DNA of 64,000 nt. Source: an uncultured Latescibacterota bacterium. Lineage in GTDB: Bacteria > Latescibacterota > UBA2968. Positions 12,200 to 36,503 of the stretch are shown piece after piece. The stretch covers positions 6,067,107-6,131,106 of the forward strand of contig OX638329.1 of assembly GCA_951812755.1 (NCBI GenBank). The letters are read 5' to 3'. Every line of letters begins with the position of its first letter. The stretch's first letter is position 1. Made by a program: the position numbers and the translations under genes. The notes beneath the pieces were generated by a model. The model did not search any database. It worked only from the letters and a program-made list of their open reading frames with translations, and had not been told where the DNA came from.

Positions 12200-14182
12200 A
12201 TGATGCGTTCAGATAAGAAAACCACAACGCCCGCACCGGCAGAACGCGGTCTCACATTCCGCTCGGTGGGGTTGGGACTCGGGATCGTGGTTTTCATCAA
12301 TTTGTGGGTAACGTATGCGGAAACGGTCGTGCATTCCTCCCGCCTGAATCTGAGTTATTTCCAACTCACGCTCATGGCCGTGTTTCTCATTCTGGTGGCT
12401 ATCGCCAACCCTTTCCTCAAAATGTACAGCCCTCGGGTTGCATTTTCCCCCTCCGAGTTGCTGGCAATCGTCGCCATTGGCATGGTCGGTTGCGTAGTGC
12501 CCGCCTCTGGCATCACGGGCTTTTTAATCGGGGTGATTGCAACCCCGATCTATTTTTCCACGCCGGAAAATCGGTGGGCGGAATTTTATCATCCGCATCT
12601 AAATTCATGGGTGGTGCCAACAGAACCCGAAGCCCTCCGCACATTCTTTGAAGGGCTGCCCCTGGGCGCGTCAATTCCCTGGGGCGTTTGGGTCGCGCCA
12701 TTGGCGTGGTGGGCAACTTTTATTCTCGCGGTCTTCGCCCTGTCGGCCAGCACGATGGTGATCCTCCGCAAACAGTGGTCAGACAATGAGAAACTGGTCT
12801 ATCCCCTTGTTGCGGTTCCACTCGAAATGGCTCGAGATGCCGGGGCGAAAAAATTGATCCCCGAGTTCATGCGGGGAAAATTGTTCTGGATCCCGGCAAT
12901 CATTGCTTTCGCATTGTTCTTTTGGAATACGGTATCGTGGTCTTTCCCCCTTGTTCCGGCACTGAACATTTTTCCCAATGCGGGTGACTTTAGATTCACG
13001 CGGTATTCCCCCCAGGTCGTCCTGGAGCCTCTCAATCTATTCACCATCGGATTTGCGTATTTTGCCAACACTCAGGTGTTGTTTTCAGTCTGGTTCTTTT
13101 TTTTATTACACGTCGTAGAAGGGGGCATTTTCAACCGCCTGGGGTATCAGATCGAGAGATCAACCGATTCCTTCAGCGCGGATCCACCCACAGAGGCATG
13201 GCAATGTTTCGGGGCGTTGGCGGCCATGGTAATATGGCGGCTGTGGGTGGCACGCCACCATTTGCGGGATGTATTTGCGAGAGCCTTTTCTTCCCAACAT
13301 CGCGTGAATGACAGTGGAGAGGTACTCTCCTACCGAACTTCCGTCTTCGCGCTTCTGTGTAGCCTGACCTACATAATTTTCTGGCTTCATCAGGTTGGGA
13401 TGGACCTCGCCACAGCAACAATCTATCTCGCGGCCGCCGGTGTCATTTATATCGGCCTGGCAAGGGTGGTTTGTGAAGCGGGAATCGTCTATTCCGGGGC
13501 AACCATCACGCCACAAGCATTTGTGATGGATATGCGGGGTACCTATGCCATTTCAAATGCGAGCCTGGCCGCAATCGCACTGTCCTATTCGCTGGTTGAT
13601 TACATGCGCGGCCTGTTCGCGCCGGGCGTTGCCCATTCCGTGAAATTGGGCGATCTAATTCGCGGCAACCGGCGTGCGCTACTCGTCTGGGTTGGCATTG
13701 GCGTACTGCTCGGCCTGGTCGCATCGGTGCTTTACACACTCTATCTGGGCTATTCGCACGGGGCATACAATTTTCCCAGATTTCCATTTTTTAGCGGCGA
13801 TCCGAAGAGGGTGTTTGCCTCTACGCTATCACAAATGAGAACCCCCAAGGCGCCGGACCCGGCGAGAATGGTTTTCTTTGGCATTGGCGCCGCGTTGATG
13901 GCATTGTTGACATTCCTCAGATATCGTTTTCGCTGGTGGCAGATACACCCCATAGGATTGGCCCTCTCTTCGGCGGATAACACGGCCCACTATGTGATGC
14001 CAATTTTTATCGCCTGGGGGTGCAAGACCATCATCATGGCTGTCGGCGGTGTTCAGCTTTACCGCAAAGCAACACCCGTCTTTCTCGGGCTGCTTGTCGG
14101 CTATACGGCAGGGGTTGTATGGTCTTTTATCGTCGATGCAACCCTGTGGTCGGGACAGGGACACGAAGTTCATAACTGGTGA
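12200..14182 (+). CDS. Polytopic membrane protein, DUF6785/OPT-like (copy 1)
   Basis: About 660 residues with roughly a dozen hydrophobic segments. Starts at ATG 12200 or 12203 after GGATTGGA are possible; a TTG at 12194 is less likely. Two segments stand out: ELLAIVAIGMVGCVVPASGITGFLIG in the first third and KLVYPLVAVPLEMA after the fifth helix. These recall the membrane proteins of uncharacterised families DUF6784/DUF6785 and, more distantly, oligopeptide (OPT) transporters; this is recognition by memory. A close paralogue lies at 16710. The TPR/GWxTD gene follows 38 nt later, so the pair is a module. Transport substrate unknown. Confidence 0.6.
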   Translation: MMRSDKKTTTPAPAERGLTFRSVGLGLGIVVFINLWVTYAETVVHSSRLNLSYFQLTLMAVFLILVAIANPFLKMYSPRVAFSPSELLAIVAIGMVGCVVPASGITGFLIGVIATPIYFSTPENRWAEFYHPHLNSWVVPTEPEALRTFFEGLPLGASIPWGVWVAPLAWWATFILAVFALSASTMVILRKQWSDNEKLVYPLVAVPLEMARDAGAKKLIPEFMRGKLFWIPAIIAFALFFWNTVSWSFPLVPALNIFPNAGDFRFTRYSPQVVLEPLNLFTIGFAYFANTQVLFSVWFFFLLHVVEGGIFNRLGYQIERSTDSFSADPPTEAWQCFGALAAMVIWRLWVARHHLRDVFARAFSSQHRVNDSGEVLSYRTSVFALLCSLTYIIFWLHQVGMDLATATIYLAAAGVIYIGLARVVCEAGIVYSGATITPQAFVMDMRGTYAISNASLAAIALSYSLVDYMRGLFAPGVAHSVKLGDLIRGNRRALLVWVGIGVLLGLVASVLYTLYLGYSHGAYNFPRFPFFSGDPKRVFASTLSQMRTPKAPDPARMVFFGIGAALMALLTFLRYRFRWWQIHPIGLALSSADNTAHYVMPIFIAWGCKTIIMAVGGVQLYRKATPVFLGLLVGYTAGVVWSFIVDATLWSGQGHEVHNW

Positions 14183-16668: not shown

Positions 16669-16709
16669 GAGCTTGGGGTTCCGGTCAGTAATTCCGAGAG
16701 GCAAAACGC

Positions 16710-18695
16710 GTGGCAATACAAACAGAATTTGCACATGAAACCGATCCCCTACAGGAAAAGGGACTGACAGTCCGCTCGGTGGGGATTGCGCTGGGCGCGG
16801 TGGTATTTATCAACCTTTGGGTGACGTATGCCGAAACCGTGGTGCATGCATCCAGACTGAACCTGAGCTTTTTTCAGCTCACATTGATGGCCGTATTCGT
16901 TTTGCTGGTCGCAGCCGTCAACCCGATTTTGAAAATCATGGGATCACACCGCGCATTTTCGCCCTCAGAACTGCTGGCAATTGCCGCCATCGGCATGGTG
17001 GGCTGCGTGGTGCCCGCTTCGGGCGTAACCGGATTCCTCATCGGCGTCATTTCCACGCCGATCTACTTTGCCACACCCGAAAATCGGTGGGGCGAATTTT
17101 ATCATCCCAACTTCGATTCGTGGGTCGTACCCATAGACCCCGAAGCCCTTCGCATGTTCTACGAAGGCTTGCCACCCGGCGCGTCCATGCCCTGGGAAGT
17201 ATGGCTGATGCCCCTGCTGTGGTGGGCGAGCTTTATCGTCGCAGTATTCGCGCTCTCAGCCAGCATGATGGTCATCTTGCGCAAACAATGGGCAGAACAC
17301 GAAAAACTGGTCTATCCCCTCGTAGCCGTGCCTCTGGAAATGGCGCAAGATTCGCGGTCAAAACAATTTTTACCGGGTTTTATGCGGGGCAAACTATTCT
17401 GGATCATGGCCGCAATACCATTTCTGTTATTCTTGTGGAATTCCCTATCCTGGTTTTATCCGCTCATGCCCGGAATCGGGATCTTTCCCCATGCAGGGAA
17501 GTTTAATTTTACGCGGTACTCTCCCCACGTCTATCTGGAACCCCTGAACCTGTTTACCATCGGCTTTGCGTACTTTGCCAACACACAGGTACTATTTTCG
17601 GTCTGGTTCTTCTTTTTGCTCCATGTGGTAGAAGGCGGCATTTTCAATCGCCTGGGATATCAGATCGAGAGTTCAACGGATTCGTTCAGTGCCGATCCGC
17701 CCACCGAAGCCTATCAGTGCTTTGGCGCGCTGGCATGTCTGGTGGTGTGGCGATTGTGGGTGGCGCGGCGGCATTTGCGAGACGTCTTTCTGAAAGCGTT
17801 TAAAAGGGCATATCCCGCCGATGATTCTCAAGAAGTACTGGCCTACCGCACTGTGGTCTTTGTATTTTTAGTGAGTCTATCTTTCGTCCTCTTCTGGCTC
17901 TGCCACATCGGCATGGATATAACGACGGCACTGGTTTTCCTCGGCGCACTATCCATAATTTATATCGGTCTGGCGCGGGTCGTATCAGAAGCAGGGATGG
18001 TGTATTCAGGCGCCACAGTAACCCCGCAGGCATTTGTCATGGACATGCGCGGTACAGAAGTCATGTCTGCGAGTAGCCTGACAGGCATTGCCCTATCGTA
18101 TTCCATTGTCGATTATATGCGGGGCCTATTTACGCCCGGCGTGGCACAATCGATCAAAATGGGTGAGCTCATCCAGGGCAACCGCCGCGCATTGTTATTC
18201 TGGGCTGGCGTGAGCGTTTTGCTGGGACTGGGCGCATCCGTATTTTACACCCTGCACCTGGGCTATTCTCACGGCGCGTACAATTTCCCGCGCTTCCCCT
18301 TTTTCAGCGGCGATCCAAAGGGAATTTACGGATCGACGTTAGTCATGATGCACACGCCCAAAGCACCCGACGGCGAGCGCATGGTCTTCTTTGCAATCGG
18401 AGCGGGCCTGATGGCATTGTTGACCTTCTTGCGCTACCGGTTCCCGGGCTGGCCCCTGCATCCCATCGGACTCACCCTATCGGCAGCCGACAATACCGCC
18501 CACCTCGTCATGCCCGTCTTCATCGCCTGGGCGTGCAAATCTATCATCATGGCCGTCGGCGGTGTAAACCTCTACCGCCGCTCCAAACCCGCGTTTCTCG
18601 GCCTTCTCGTGGGCTATACAGCCGGCGTGGTACTGTCTTTCCTCATCGACGCACTGTGGTGGCCGGGAGAAGGGCATCTCGTGCATTATTGGTAG
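16710..18695 (+). CDS. Polytopic membrane protein, DUF6785/OPT-like (copy 2)
   Basis: A 661-residue paralogue of the 12200 gene. The two align from FRSVG/VRSVG to the C-terminus with the same hydrophobic profile and long shared blocks (TPENRW, EAGIVYSGAT/EAGMVYSGAT, YSHGAYNFPRFPFFSGDPK). It starts at GTG 16710 after GAGAGG. The third positions differ widely, so the duplication is old. The TPR/GWxTD partner that follows copy 1 is absent directly downstream here; instead come repeats and foreign-looking genes, and a truncated partner appears at 22062. Confidence 0.6.
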   Translation: MAIQTEFAHETDPLQEKGLTVRSVGIALGAVVFINLWVTYAETVVHASRLNLSFFQLTLMAVFVLLVAAVNPILKIMGSHRAFSPSELLAIAAIGMVGCVVPASGVTGFLIGVISTPIYFATPENRWGEFYHPNFDSWVVPIDPEALRMFYEGLPPGASMPWEVWLMPLLWWASFIVAVFALSASMMVILRKQWAEHEKLVYPLVAVPLEMAQDSRSKQFLPGFMRGKLFWIMAAIPFLLFLWNSLSWFYPLMPGIGIFPHAGKFNFTRYSPHVYLEPLNLFTIGFAYFANTQVLFSVWFFFLLHVVEGGIFNRLGYQIESSTDSFSADPPTEAYQCFGALACLVVWRLWVARRHLRDVFLKAFKRAYPADDSQEVLAYRTVVFVFLVSLSFVLFWLCHIGMDITTALVFLGALSIIYIGLARVVSEAGMVYSGATVTPQAFVMDMRGTEVMSASSLTGIALSYSIVDYMRGLFTPGVAQSIKMGELIQGNRRALLFWAGVSVLLGLGASVFYTLHLGYSHGAYNFPRFPFFSGDPKGIYGSTLVMMHTPKAPDGERMVFFAIGAGLMALLTFLRYRFPGWPLHPIGLTLSAADNTAHLVMPVFIAWACKSIIMAVGGVNLYRRSKPAFLGLLVGYTAGVVLSFLIDALWWPGEGHLVHYW

Positions 18696-18718
18696 AAAAA
18701 GTGAGATGTGAGAGGGCC

Positions 18719-18751
18719 TCACACAAAGACACAAAGACACAAAGATACAAG
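18719..18751 (+). repeat. 8-nt-period tandem repeat (ACACAAAG)n
   Basis: About four units of ACACAAAG, the last one degenerate, directly behind the membrane-protein gene. The same sequence type recurs on the opposite strand inside an ABC ATPase gene at 32554-32585. Confidence 0.8.
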
Positions 18752-18859
18752 CAGCGGGAAATGAAAGGTGAGAAGTGGGATGAGTAAATCTCAGGGCGAT
18801 TCTGAGTTCGGGTCTTCAGATGAGACATCAGGCGGCATAGATTTCTTTTCCTTCTTCTA

Positions 18860-19045
18860 AGAAGCTGTTTTAAAACTCATTTTGCCCCTTCTCAGCTATG
18901 CGCTATTGCCCTGTCATTCTGAGCGGAGCGCAGCGGAGTCGAAGAATCTCTTACCAACTCAGGTGGAAAAGATGCTTCGGCTACGCTCAGCATGACAAAA
19001 CGCCGGACATGCGTAACATCAGGTATTAATTTTAAAACAGTCTCT
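18860..19045 (+). mobile_element. MITE-like element, copy 1 (186 bp), inserted in the nucleotidyltransferase gene
   Basis: The ends are AGAAGCTGTTTTAAAA and TTTTAAAACAGTCTCT, imperfect inverted repeats. TTAG flanks the element on both sides (read on the minus strand, just outside AGACTG and CAGCTTC), consistent with a 4-bp target duplication. The interior holds a smaller inverted repeat around TGTCATxCTGAGCG/CGCTCAGCATGACA. It encodes no transposase. Removing the element and one TTAG restores an intact gene 3' end (see findings). Confidence 0.8.
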
Positions 19046-19332
19046 AAGATGCGATAATAGATTAATCCGATATTATTTTTGTGTCTCTCAAGGTCTTCAG
19101 GTGTTGCAACCAGAATATCAATGGGCAGAGGAATACCCCTCATTTCAATATGAAGATGCTGCGCTGTTCTTCGCCTGTGAACACCATCGGGCATGACAAC
19201 GAGTACATCCACATCGCTATCCGGTCCCATCTCGCCTCGCGCAGCCGAGCCAAAGAGGATAATCTTGAGCGGGTTGACAACTTCAACAATTCGCTCTACG
19301 AGTTGATCAATGACATTCGTATCGGGTTGCAT
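18892..19332 (-). CDS. MNT-type nucleotidyltransferase with element-derived C-terminal tail
   Basis: A 146-residue protein starting at an ATG behind GGAG. Residues 22-45 give LKIILFGSAARGEMG and PDSDVDVLV: the GSxxRG motif plus the catalytic Asp pair (D40, D42) of minimal nucleotidyltransferases (MntA/KNTase-like), which transfer nucleotides to partner proteins and are often paired with HEPN toxins. No HEPN gene is adjacent. Residues from about 98 onward are encoded by the MITE-like element, replacing a native end that can be reconstructed as EGKEIYAA. The catalytic core is intact, so the protein may still work. It is probably an orphan antitoxin-type gene. Confidence 0.8.
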   Translation of the reverse strand: MQPDTNVIDQLVERIVEVVNPLKIILFGSAARGEMGPDSDVDVLVVMPDGVHRRRTAQHLHIEMRGIPLPIDILVATPEDLERHKNNIGLIYYRILETVLKLIPDVTHVRRFVMLSVAEASFPPELVRDSSTPLRSAQNDRAIAHS

Positions 19333-35686: not shown

Positions 35687-35930
35687 GTCATTGCGGCAGG
35701 GTTTTAGCCGCAATCCAGTTTATTTTTTGTTTATTGTTAGACTAGTTCATCGCGGCAAAAGAGACTACCCATATCAATCTTACTTGCGATTGTCATTGCG
35801 GCAGGGTTTTAGCCGCAATCCAGTTTATTTTTTGTTTATTGTTAGACTAGTTCATCGCGGCAAAAGAGACTACCCATATCAATCTTACTTGCGATTGTCA
35901 TTGCGGCAGGGTTTTAGCCGCAATCCAGAA
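35687..35930 (+). repeat. 105-bp tandem repeat, two full units and a partial third
   Basis: Units start at 35687, 35792 and 35897, essentially identical, each beginning with the hairpin ATTGCGGC-9 nt-GCCGCAAT. The third unit stops after the hairpin and continues into unique DNA. The 105-nt period keeps a frame open, but that ORF looks like an artefact. Between the small ABC-operon gene (starts at 35493) and the element at 35998 no gene is visible; a short hairpin GCCTGC/GCAGGC lies at about 35646-35666. Confidence 0.9.
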
Positions 35931-35997
35931 GGTTTTGCTGTTCATGTCTATATGGGGCATGACTTACGCCGATGCACTAGAACACCCATGACTACTT

Positions 35998-36231
35998 AGA
36001 AGCTGTTTTAAAACTCATTTTGCCCCTTCCTCGGCTATGCGCTATTGCCCTGTCATGCTGAGCGGAGCGCAGCGGAGTCGAAGGAGCGGGGTATGAAGGC
36101 GAGTAAATCGAGCATGACTGCGTAGCAGTTCATCTCTTACCAACTCAGGTGGAAAAGATGCTTCGGCTCCGCTCAGCATGACAAAACGCCGGACATGCGT
36201 AACATCAGGTATTAATTTTAAAACAGCTTCT
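35998..36231 (+). mobile_element. MITE-like element, copy 3 (234 bp), forming the 3' end of a membrane-protein gene
   Basis: Both ends are the perfect inverted repeat AGAAGCTGTTTTAAAA/TTTTAAAACAGCTTCT. The internal inverted repeat TGTCATGCTGAGCG/CGCTCAGCATGACA lies at 36051-36064 and 36170-36183. No clear target duplication. No transposase. Confidence 0.8.
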
Positions 36232-36503
36232 GAGGGTTCAAAAAGACAAATTACTCCCATATTTTCAATAGTTTTTGCCAAGATCAATTTGGGCAATATA
36301 TTTTGCGCTCTTTGATAATATTGGTAAGCTATCCGACCTGAAAATGCTAAAAGTATCAACAAAAGAGCCAATACAGATAAGGCCAATTTTAGAGATATGC
36401 TGTCATCAGGAGAAAAAATCCATAAGGCCAAAGGTAACCCTATAGTAAGGACACAACGCAAAATAAAGTACAGATCGATTAAGTTACGCCATTTTCCGGT
36501 CAT
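36042..36503 (-). CDS. Small two-helix membrane protein with element-derived C-terminal tail
   Basis: A 153-residue protein starting at an ATG behind AGGA. Two hydrophobic segments lie at about 9-31 and 38-58. Residues 92-153 are translated from the MITE-like element and match the tail of the nucleotidyltransferase at 18892 (VLKLIPDVTHVRRFVMLS then AEASFPPELVRD). Without the insertion the frame would have ended within a few codons (flank reads TCTAAGTAG after joining). Function unknown; no partner gene. Confidence 0.5.
   Translation of the reverse strand: MTGKWRNLIDLYFILRCVLTIGLPLALWIFSPDDSISLKLALSVLALLLILLAFSGRIAYQYYQRAQNILPKLILAKTIENMGVICLFEPSEAVLKLIPDVTHVRRFVMLSGAEASFPPELVRDELLRSHARFTRLHTPLLRLRCAPLSMTGQ

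Follow-up and report, generated by a model that had tools for sequence, protein, structure and literature searches.

A MITE insertion with an identifiable empty site in a probably decaying class II HEPN/MNT gene pair of a Latescibacterota genome

Overview

A miniature inverted-repeat element lies near the 3' end of a minimal nucleotidyltransferase (MNT) gene within the 64,000-nucleotide stretch of Latescibacterota DNA analysed here (the window). The locus is probably best read as a class II HEPN/MNT pair in decay that a MITE has recently entered, and not as a functional new protein end. The sequence shows that a non-autonomous IS5-type element has jumped, not long ago, into a leucine codon (TTA) close to the MNT 3' end and made a 3-bp TNA duplication. 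The reading frame of the gene happens to meet the long open frame of the element, so that translation would, as read from the sequence, run 50 codons into it and end at an internal TGA. The HEPN gene of the overlapping pair has also been deleted, leaving a 15-codon stub. The pair is most likely non-functional, and the MNT chimera an orphan remnant with a functionless tail. The occupied site, the empty site, the duplication, a near-consensus element and a candidate autonomous insertion sequence (IS) could all be identified, giving a clean natural before-and-after case. The features of the locus are as follows, each with the evidence that defines it.

18858–18860, no strand: left target-site duplication TAA (TTA on the minus strand); TNA agreement among copies
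18861–19044, minus strand: MITE of 184 bp; boundaries and consensus from genome copies, repeat families
19045–19047, no strand: right target-site duplication TAA (TTA, the Leu96 codon of the MNT gene); TNA agreement among copies
18892–19332, minus strand: chimeric MNT open reading frame of 146 aa; ORF list, PF01909 and comparison with 36 relatives
18828–18857, minus strand: stranded native MNT 3' end (codes for EEGKEIYAA, then a stop); the L032 gene ends identically
18791–18838, minus strand: stub of the deleted HEPN gene, in-frame MPPDVSSEDPNSESP and stop, ∼129 codons missing relative to L033; alignment with L032–L035

The empty site and the target-site duplication

When the flanks were joined by script with a single TAA, a 105-aa frame ending in YYRILEEGKEIYAA and a stop was obtained. 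A natural empty site was found in another genome of Ca. Latescibacterota (L006/L032, contig C29 of G002, JAJDYX010000056.1), where the 105-aa MNT has one change in residues 1–97 and an end identical to the predicted one. Synteny with this locus holds on both sides, at 92.1% over 2007 bp on the DUF6785 side and 94.7% over 3323 bp on the M60 peptidase side, and the alignment with the window breaks at the element. The 105-aa form is also present in three other genomes of the genus (L007–L009). More widely, 36 of 36 element-free relatives, which their record titles place in several phyla, carry a short EGKEIYAA-like end, so that the insertion is the derived state; G99 and Y103, which lie in the replaced C-terminus, are invariant in all of them.

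The first-pass annotation had proposed a MITE insertion whose empty site can be reconstructed, with removal of the element and one duplication copy restoring a 105-residue protein, and both the joined flanks and L006/L032 bear this out. It had named related genomes as the place to seek the 105-residue version and element-free flanks, which L006/L032 supplies with its two-sided synteny, and it had staked the reading on element-free relatives having an EGKEIYAA-like end, as all 36 do. We give almost no credence to the reverse history, in which the 146-aa form is ancestral and the short form arose by precise excision. In principle such an excision would be indistinguishable from an empty site, but the short form with its conserved end is found in 36 of 36 relatives, and the element, which has ∼85 other intact copies with duplications here, is nearly identical to its consensus and so is young.

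Among copies with both exact ends, 44 of 46 end pairs agree in a TNA target-site duplication, compared with a mean of 16 and a maximum of 27 for the same 46 pairs in a shuffled control. The duplication thus has a constant length, here 3 bp, as expected of a MITE. A 4-bp TTAG duplication was considered and rejected, as other copies (L093, for example) share TNA only; since 44 of 46 copies agree on 3 bp, the fourth base of TTAG is a chance match. The earlier claim of a TTAG target duplication therefore stands as to the existence of a duplication but not as to its length, which is 3 bp (TAA/TTA) instead of 4. The TNA target covers the stop codons TAA and TGA, and some copies (L123 at ∼1997, L110 at ∼2006) lie at or beside a gene's stop codon, where the duplication preserves the stop.

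The element and its copies

The window element has the features of a MITE: it is 184 bp long, has imperfect terminal inverted repeats (GAAGCTGTTTTAAAA / GAGACTGTTTTAAAA), lacks a transposase ORF, and is present in multiple copies with a natural empty site at L006/L032. Its exact end motifs occur 171 times in the genome (G000; 84 forward, 87 reverse), whereas the reversed motif, used as a control, gave 0 matches, so the repeat is far beyond chance. From these ends, ∼85 intact copies were estimated. Copies of the 184-bp class are 0–11 positions off the consensus. Set against a consensus built from 41 copies, the window copy has a single internal difference and differs in both end dinucleotides; because it is nearly identical to the consensus, the insertion appears to be young, indeed very recent. 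Most copies have the end dinucleotides (GAAGC versus GAGAC) the other way round from the element at 18861–19044, which looks like an inversion of the core between the ends. An Rfam search of the locus matched no RNA family.

A candidate parent insertion sequence

An intact autonomous IS with ends matching those of the window MITE was found in a sister genome (G004, contig C44). It is 928 bp long, has TTA on both sides and encodes a transposase of ∼266 aa with PF13340 (DUF4096) and PF01609 (DDE) domains, which matches NF033580, ‘IS5 family transposase’ (IS5_3), with E=5.9e-74. The MITE thus shares its ends with an autonomous IS5 element, and many contigs of the same sister genome break inside a repeat with these ends. 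On this sequence evidence, the shared ends link the MITE, as a putative non-autonomous member, to an IS5-type (DUF4096 and DDE) family.

A search of the element's own genome for the G004-type transposase or DUF4096, which sought only similar transposases, gave no match. Presence of the same transposase in the host of a non-autonomous element is usual but not strictly required. Since no matching transposase was found there, the MITE copies in this genome look stranded; the probable source of their transposase is an IS that the sister genome has and that this one no longer contains. The DDE_Tnp_1 and DDE_Tnp_4 transposases of the own genome were rejected as parents; none carries the element ends, except one that adjoins a MITE. 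A search for literature on IS5-family MITEs with a TNA duplication found nothing.

In sister genomes the same terminal repeats flank several unrelated interiors (at G001 and G004 contig ends, e.g. L152–L156), and the ends are hence common to several types of element. Another sister genome, assembled as a single contig (G008), has 87 matches to the IS5-type transposase, by far the most in the genus.

The chimeric MNT protein

The chimeric ORF matches the PF01909 nucleotidyltransferase family with E=2.7e-14. Residues 1–96 are native MNT and residues 97–146 are encoded by the element, with the TGA stop codon inside it. As residue 97 (E) is the same with or without the element, there are 49 new residues and 8 lost ones, and the 49 element-encoded residues previously described at the end of the protein were correctly counted. 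The insertion adds 187 bp, which truncates the native MNT end and shifts the frame; the remnant at 18828–18857 is no longer read with the MNT gene.

The catalytic core is intact. The reading frame is unbroken and the GSX10DXD motif is intact (G28 S29 ... D40 x D42), as is D72, so that the protein has the PF01909 domain and motif of a class II MNT. On the window branch, codons 1–97 show 6 synonymous and 1 non-synonymous changes, a pattern as expected for purifying selection, although most of the time concerned may predate the insertion and these changes cannot separate the time before it from the time after.

The tail is the longest open frame of the element itself. Entered in the same frame, the consensus element encodes the same 50 residues except one, while entry in any other frame yields 3 to 44. 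Because it equals the consensus element frame, the tail was not shaped in the MNT gene, and selection for an open tail was rejected as its origin, the consensus element having the same open frame. In an AlphaFold2 model of the chimera the core is folded and residues 104–146 have a pLDDT of about 33–43, so the MITE-derived tail is predicted to be disordered. The native MNT sequence had no match in a search of PDB sequences. Annotators should treat the 50-residue tail as repeat sequence, not as a protein family.

Loss of the HEPN partner

Relatives carry a HEPN gene (∼143 aa, PF05168) that starts within the final codons of the MNT gene, so that the two overlap; PF05168 HEPN genes are present in L032, L033 and L045. 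The adjacent HEPN gene that marks a class II pair is deleted in the window. Relative to L033, ∼387 bp have been lost with the frame kept, and a stub of 15 codons remains in which the first five codons are fused to the last ten. The stub is in frame when read from the ATG at which the overlapping gene of the relatives starts. This second lesion is absent from the first-pass annotation.

The deletion joins a left side resembling L032 to a right side resembling L033, and recombination between alleles is therefore a possible cause, judging from the aligned sequences. Mosaic ancestry is also visible across 16699–18860, where the DUF6785 side, the intergenic stretch and the HEPN tail resemble L033 (96%), and the MNT gene is closer to that of L032, with one replacement in 97 residues.

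A repeat of ∼85 copies is a classic place for misassembly, and the junction or the HEPN deletion might be an artefact of assembling a repeat-rich genome. We consider this very unlikely, as the genome is a single contig, the 3-bp duplication matches, the unique flanks are syntenic with L032 on both sides, and the HEPN deletion falls within sequence that is not repeated, its outer part matching L033 at 96%.

Class I HepT/MntA modules have a PF01934 or PF08780 HEPN with an RX4HXY motif; here the HEPN of the relatives belongs to PF05168, and the MntA model NF047752 scored 30.1 bits against a cut-off of 60. Class II HEPNs are described as being without the RX4HXY RNase motif, and class II modules as not yet studied biochemically (PMC7641770), so that the toxin/antitoxin label for this pair is one that we infer.

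With the HEPN gone, the expected job of such an MNT is also gone. It is nonetheless conceivable that the chimera is a working protein with a tolerated or useful new C-terminus, the HEPN loss having freed the MNT for another role. Its ORF and catalytic motif are intact, residues 1–97 show strong past constraint and the core is predicted to be folded. In longer MNT proteins a C-terminal helix matters for HEPN control, and a short Legionella MNT works without this helix (PMC11586414), so catalysis might well survive without the eight residues. Against a working chimera, the partner gene has been deleted, the lost G99 and Y103 are conserved without exception in relatives, the tail is a consensus element frame with predicted disorder, and the insertion, with one internal change, appears very recent; we regard this alternative as improbable. 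All but the last of these points also speak against the earlier description of a ‘new protein end’, which suggests a retained protein. A more specific version would have the MITE-tailed MNT as an expressed, functional orphan nucleotidyltransferase that its tail redirects to a new partner after HEPN loss. The same genome has many other MNT genes, and the orphan might for this reason act on another HEPN, yet from the sequence we hold such redirection to be highly improbable. A functional reading of the new end is thus unlikely, and decay of the HEPN/MNT pair is the simplest account. Since the gene pair here appears to be decaying, other repeat-made ‘new protein ends’ need to be checked for partner loss.

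Other copies at gene ends

At other gene ends, copies of the element show passive capture of 4–20 or more residues, depending on the frame. The last residues of a citrate synthase (L124 2161–3273; G000:C1 at ∼5.787 Mb) have been replaced by the element and now read ELRIKKLF; in 9 of 10 relatives this end is EDRG, EERG or EDRS. A second copy in the window (35999–36230) gives a long tail to the ORF at 36042–36503 (minus strand), with 91 native and 62 element residues. A Pfam search of this ORF gave no match, and a search for its empty site found none, the only long match (G002) starting beyond the site. Copies also truncate, at the 3' end, a PemK/MazF-family gene (L115 1681–2028), a DNA methylase (L107 1363–2184) and an unassigned, PIN-like-looking gene (L119 1292–1804); in this small sample, toxin–antitoxin type genes seem frequent among genic targets.

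Two further repeats were seen in the window. Tandem copies of ∼105 bp, two of them identical, adjoin a MITE copy at 35687–35999. The stretches 12248–12739 and 16761–17252, the second within the DUF6785 gene, are 72–76% alike in DNA, which suggests duplicated DUF6785-type genes.

Comparison with known systems

The locus resembles the class II HEPN/MNT modules (PF05168/PF01909; PMC7641770) in its GSX10DXD MNT and, in relatives, the overlapping PF05168 HEPN; it differs in having lost the HEPN gene and in carrying a replaced MNT end. With the IS5 family (NF033580, IS5_3) the element has in common the terminal repeats GAAGYTGTTTTAAAA and the 3-bp TNA duplication (G004 copy), whereas it cannot encode a transposase and its interior is unrelated.

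In Coxiella burnetii, QMITE2 supplies 33 aa of the C-terminus of EnhC, and QMITE1/2 also lie at gene 3' ends (PMC5896051). The likeness is that of a MITE at a gene 3' end supplying C-terminal residues; here, in contrast, the element family is different, a natural empty site was found and a partner gene is deleted. The palindromic elements of Rickettsia (reviewed in PMC10969869) similarly fuse repeat-derived peptides to unrelated proteins. They are, however, described as inserted in frame within metabolic genes, whereas the present element cuts off the native end and causes a frameshift. As MITE-made C-termini in Coxiella and repeat fusions in Rickettsia are already known, the locus is a new case of a known phenomenon, to which it adds an unusually complete example.
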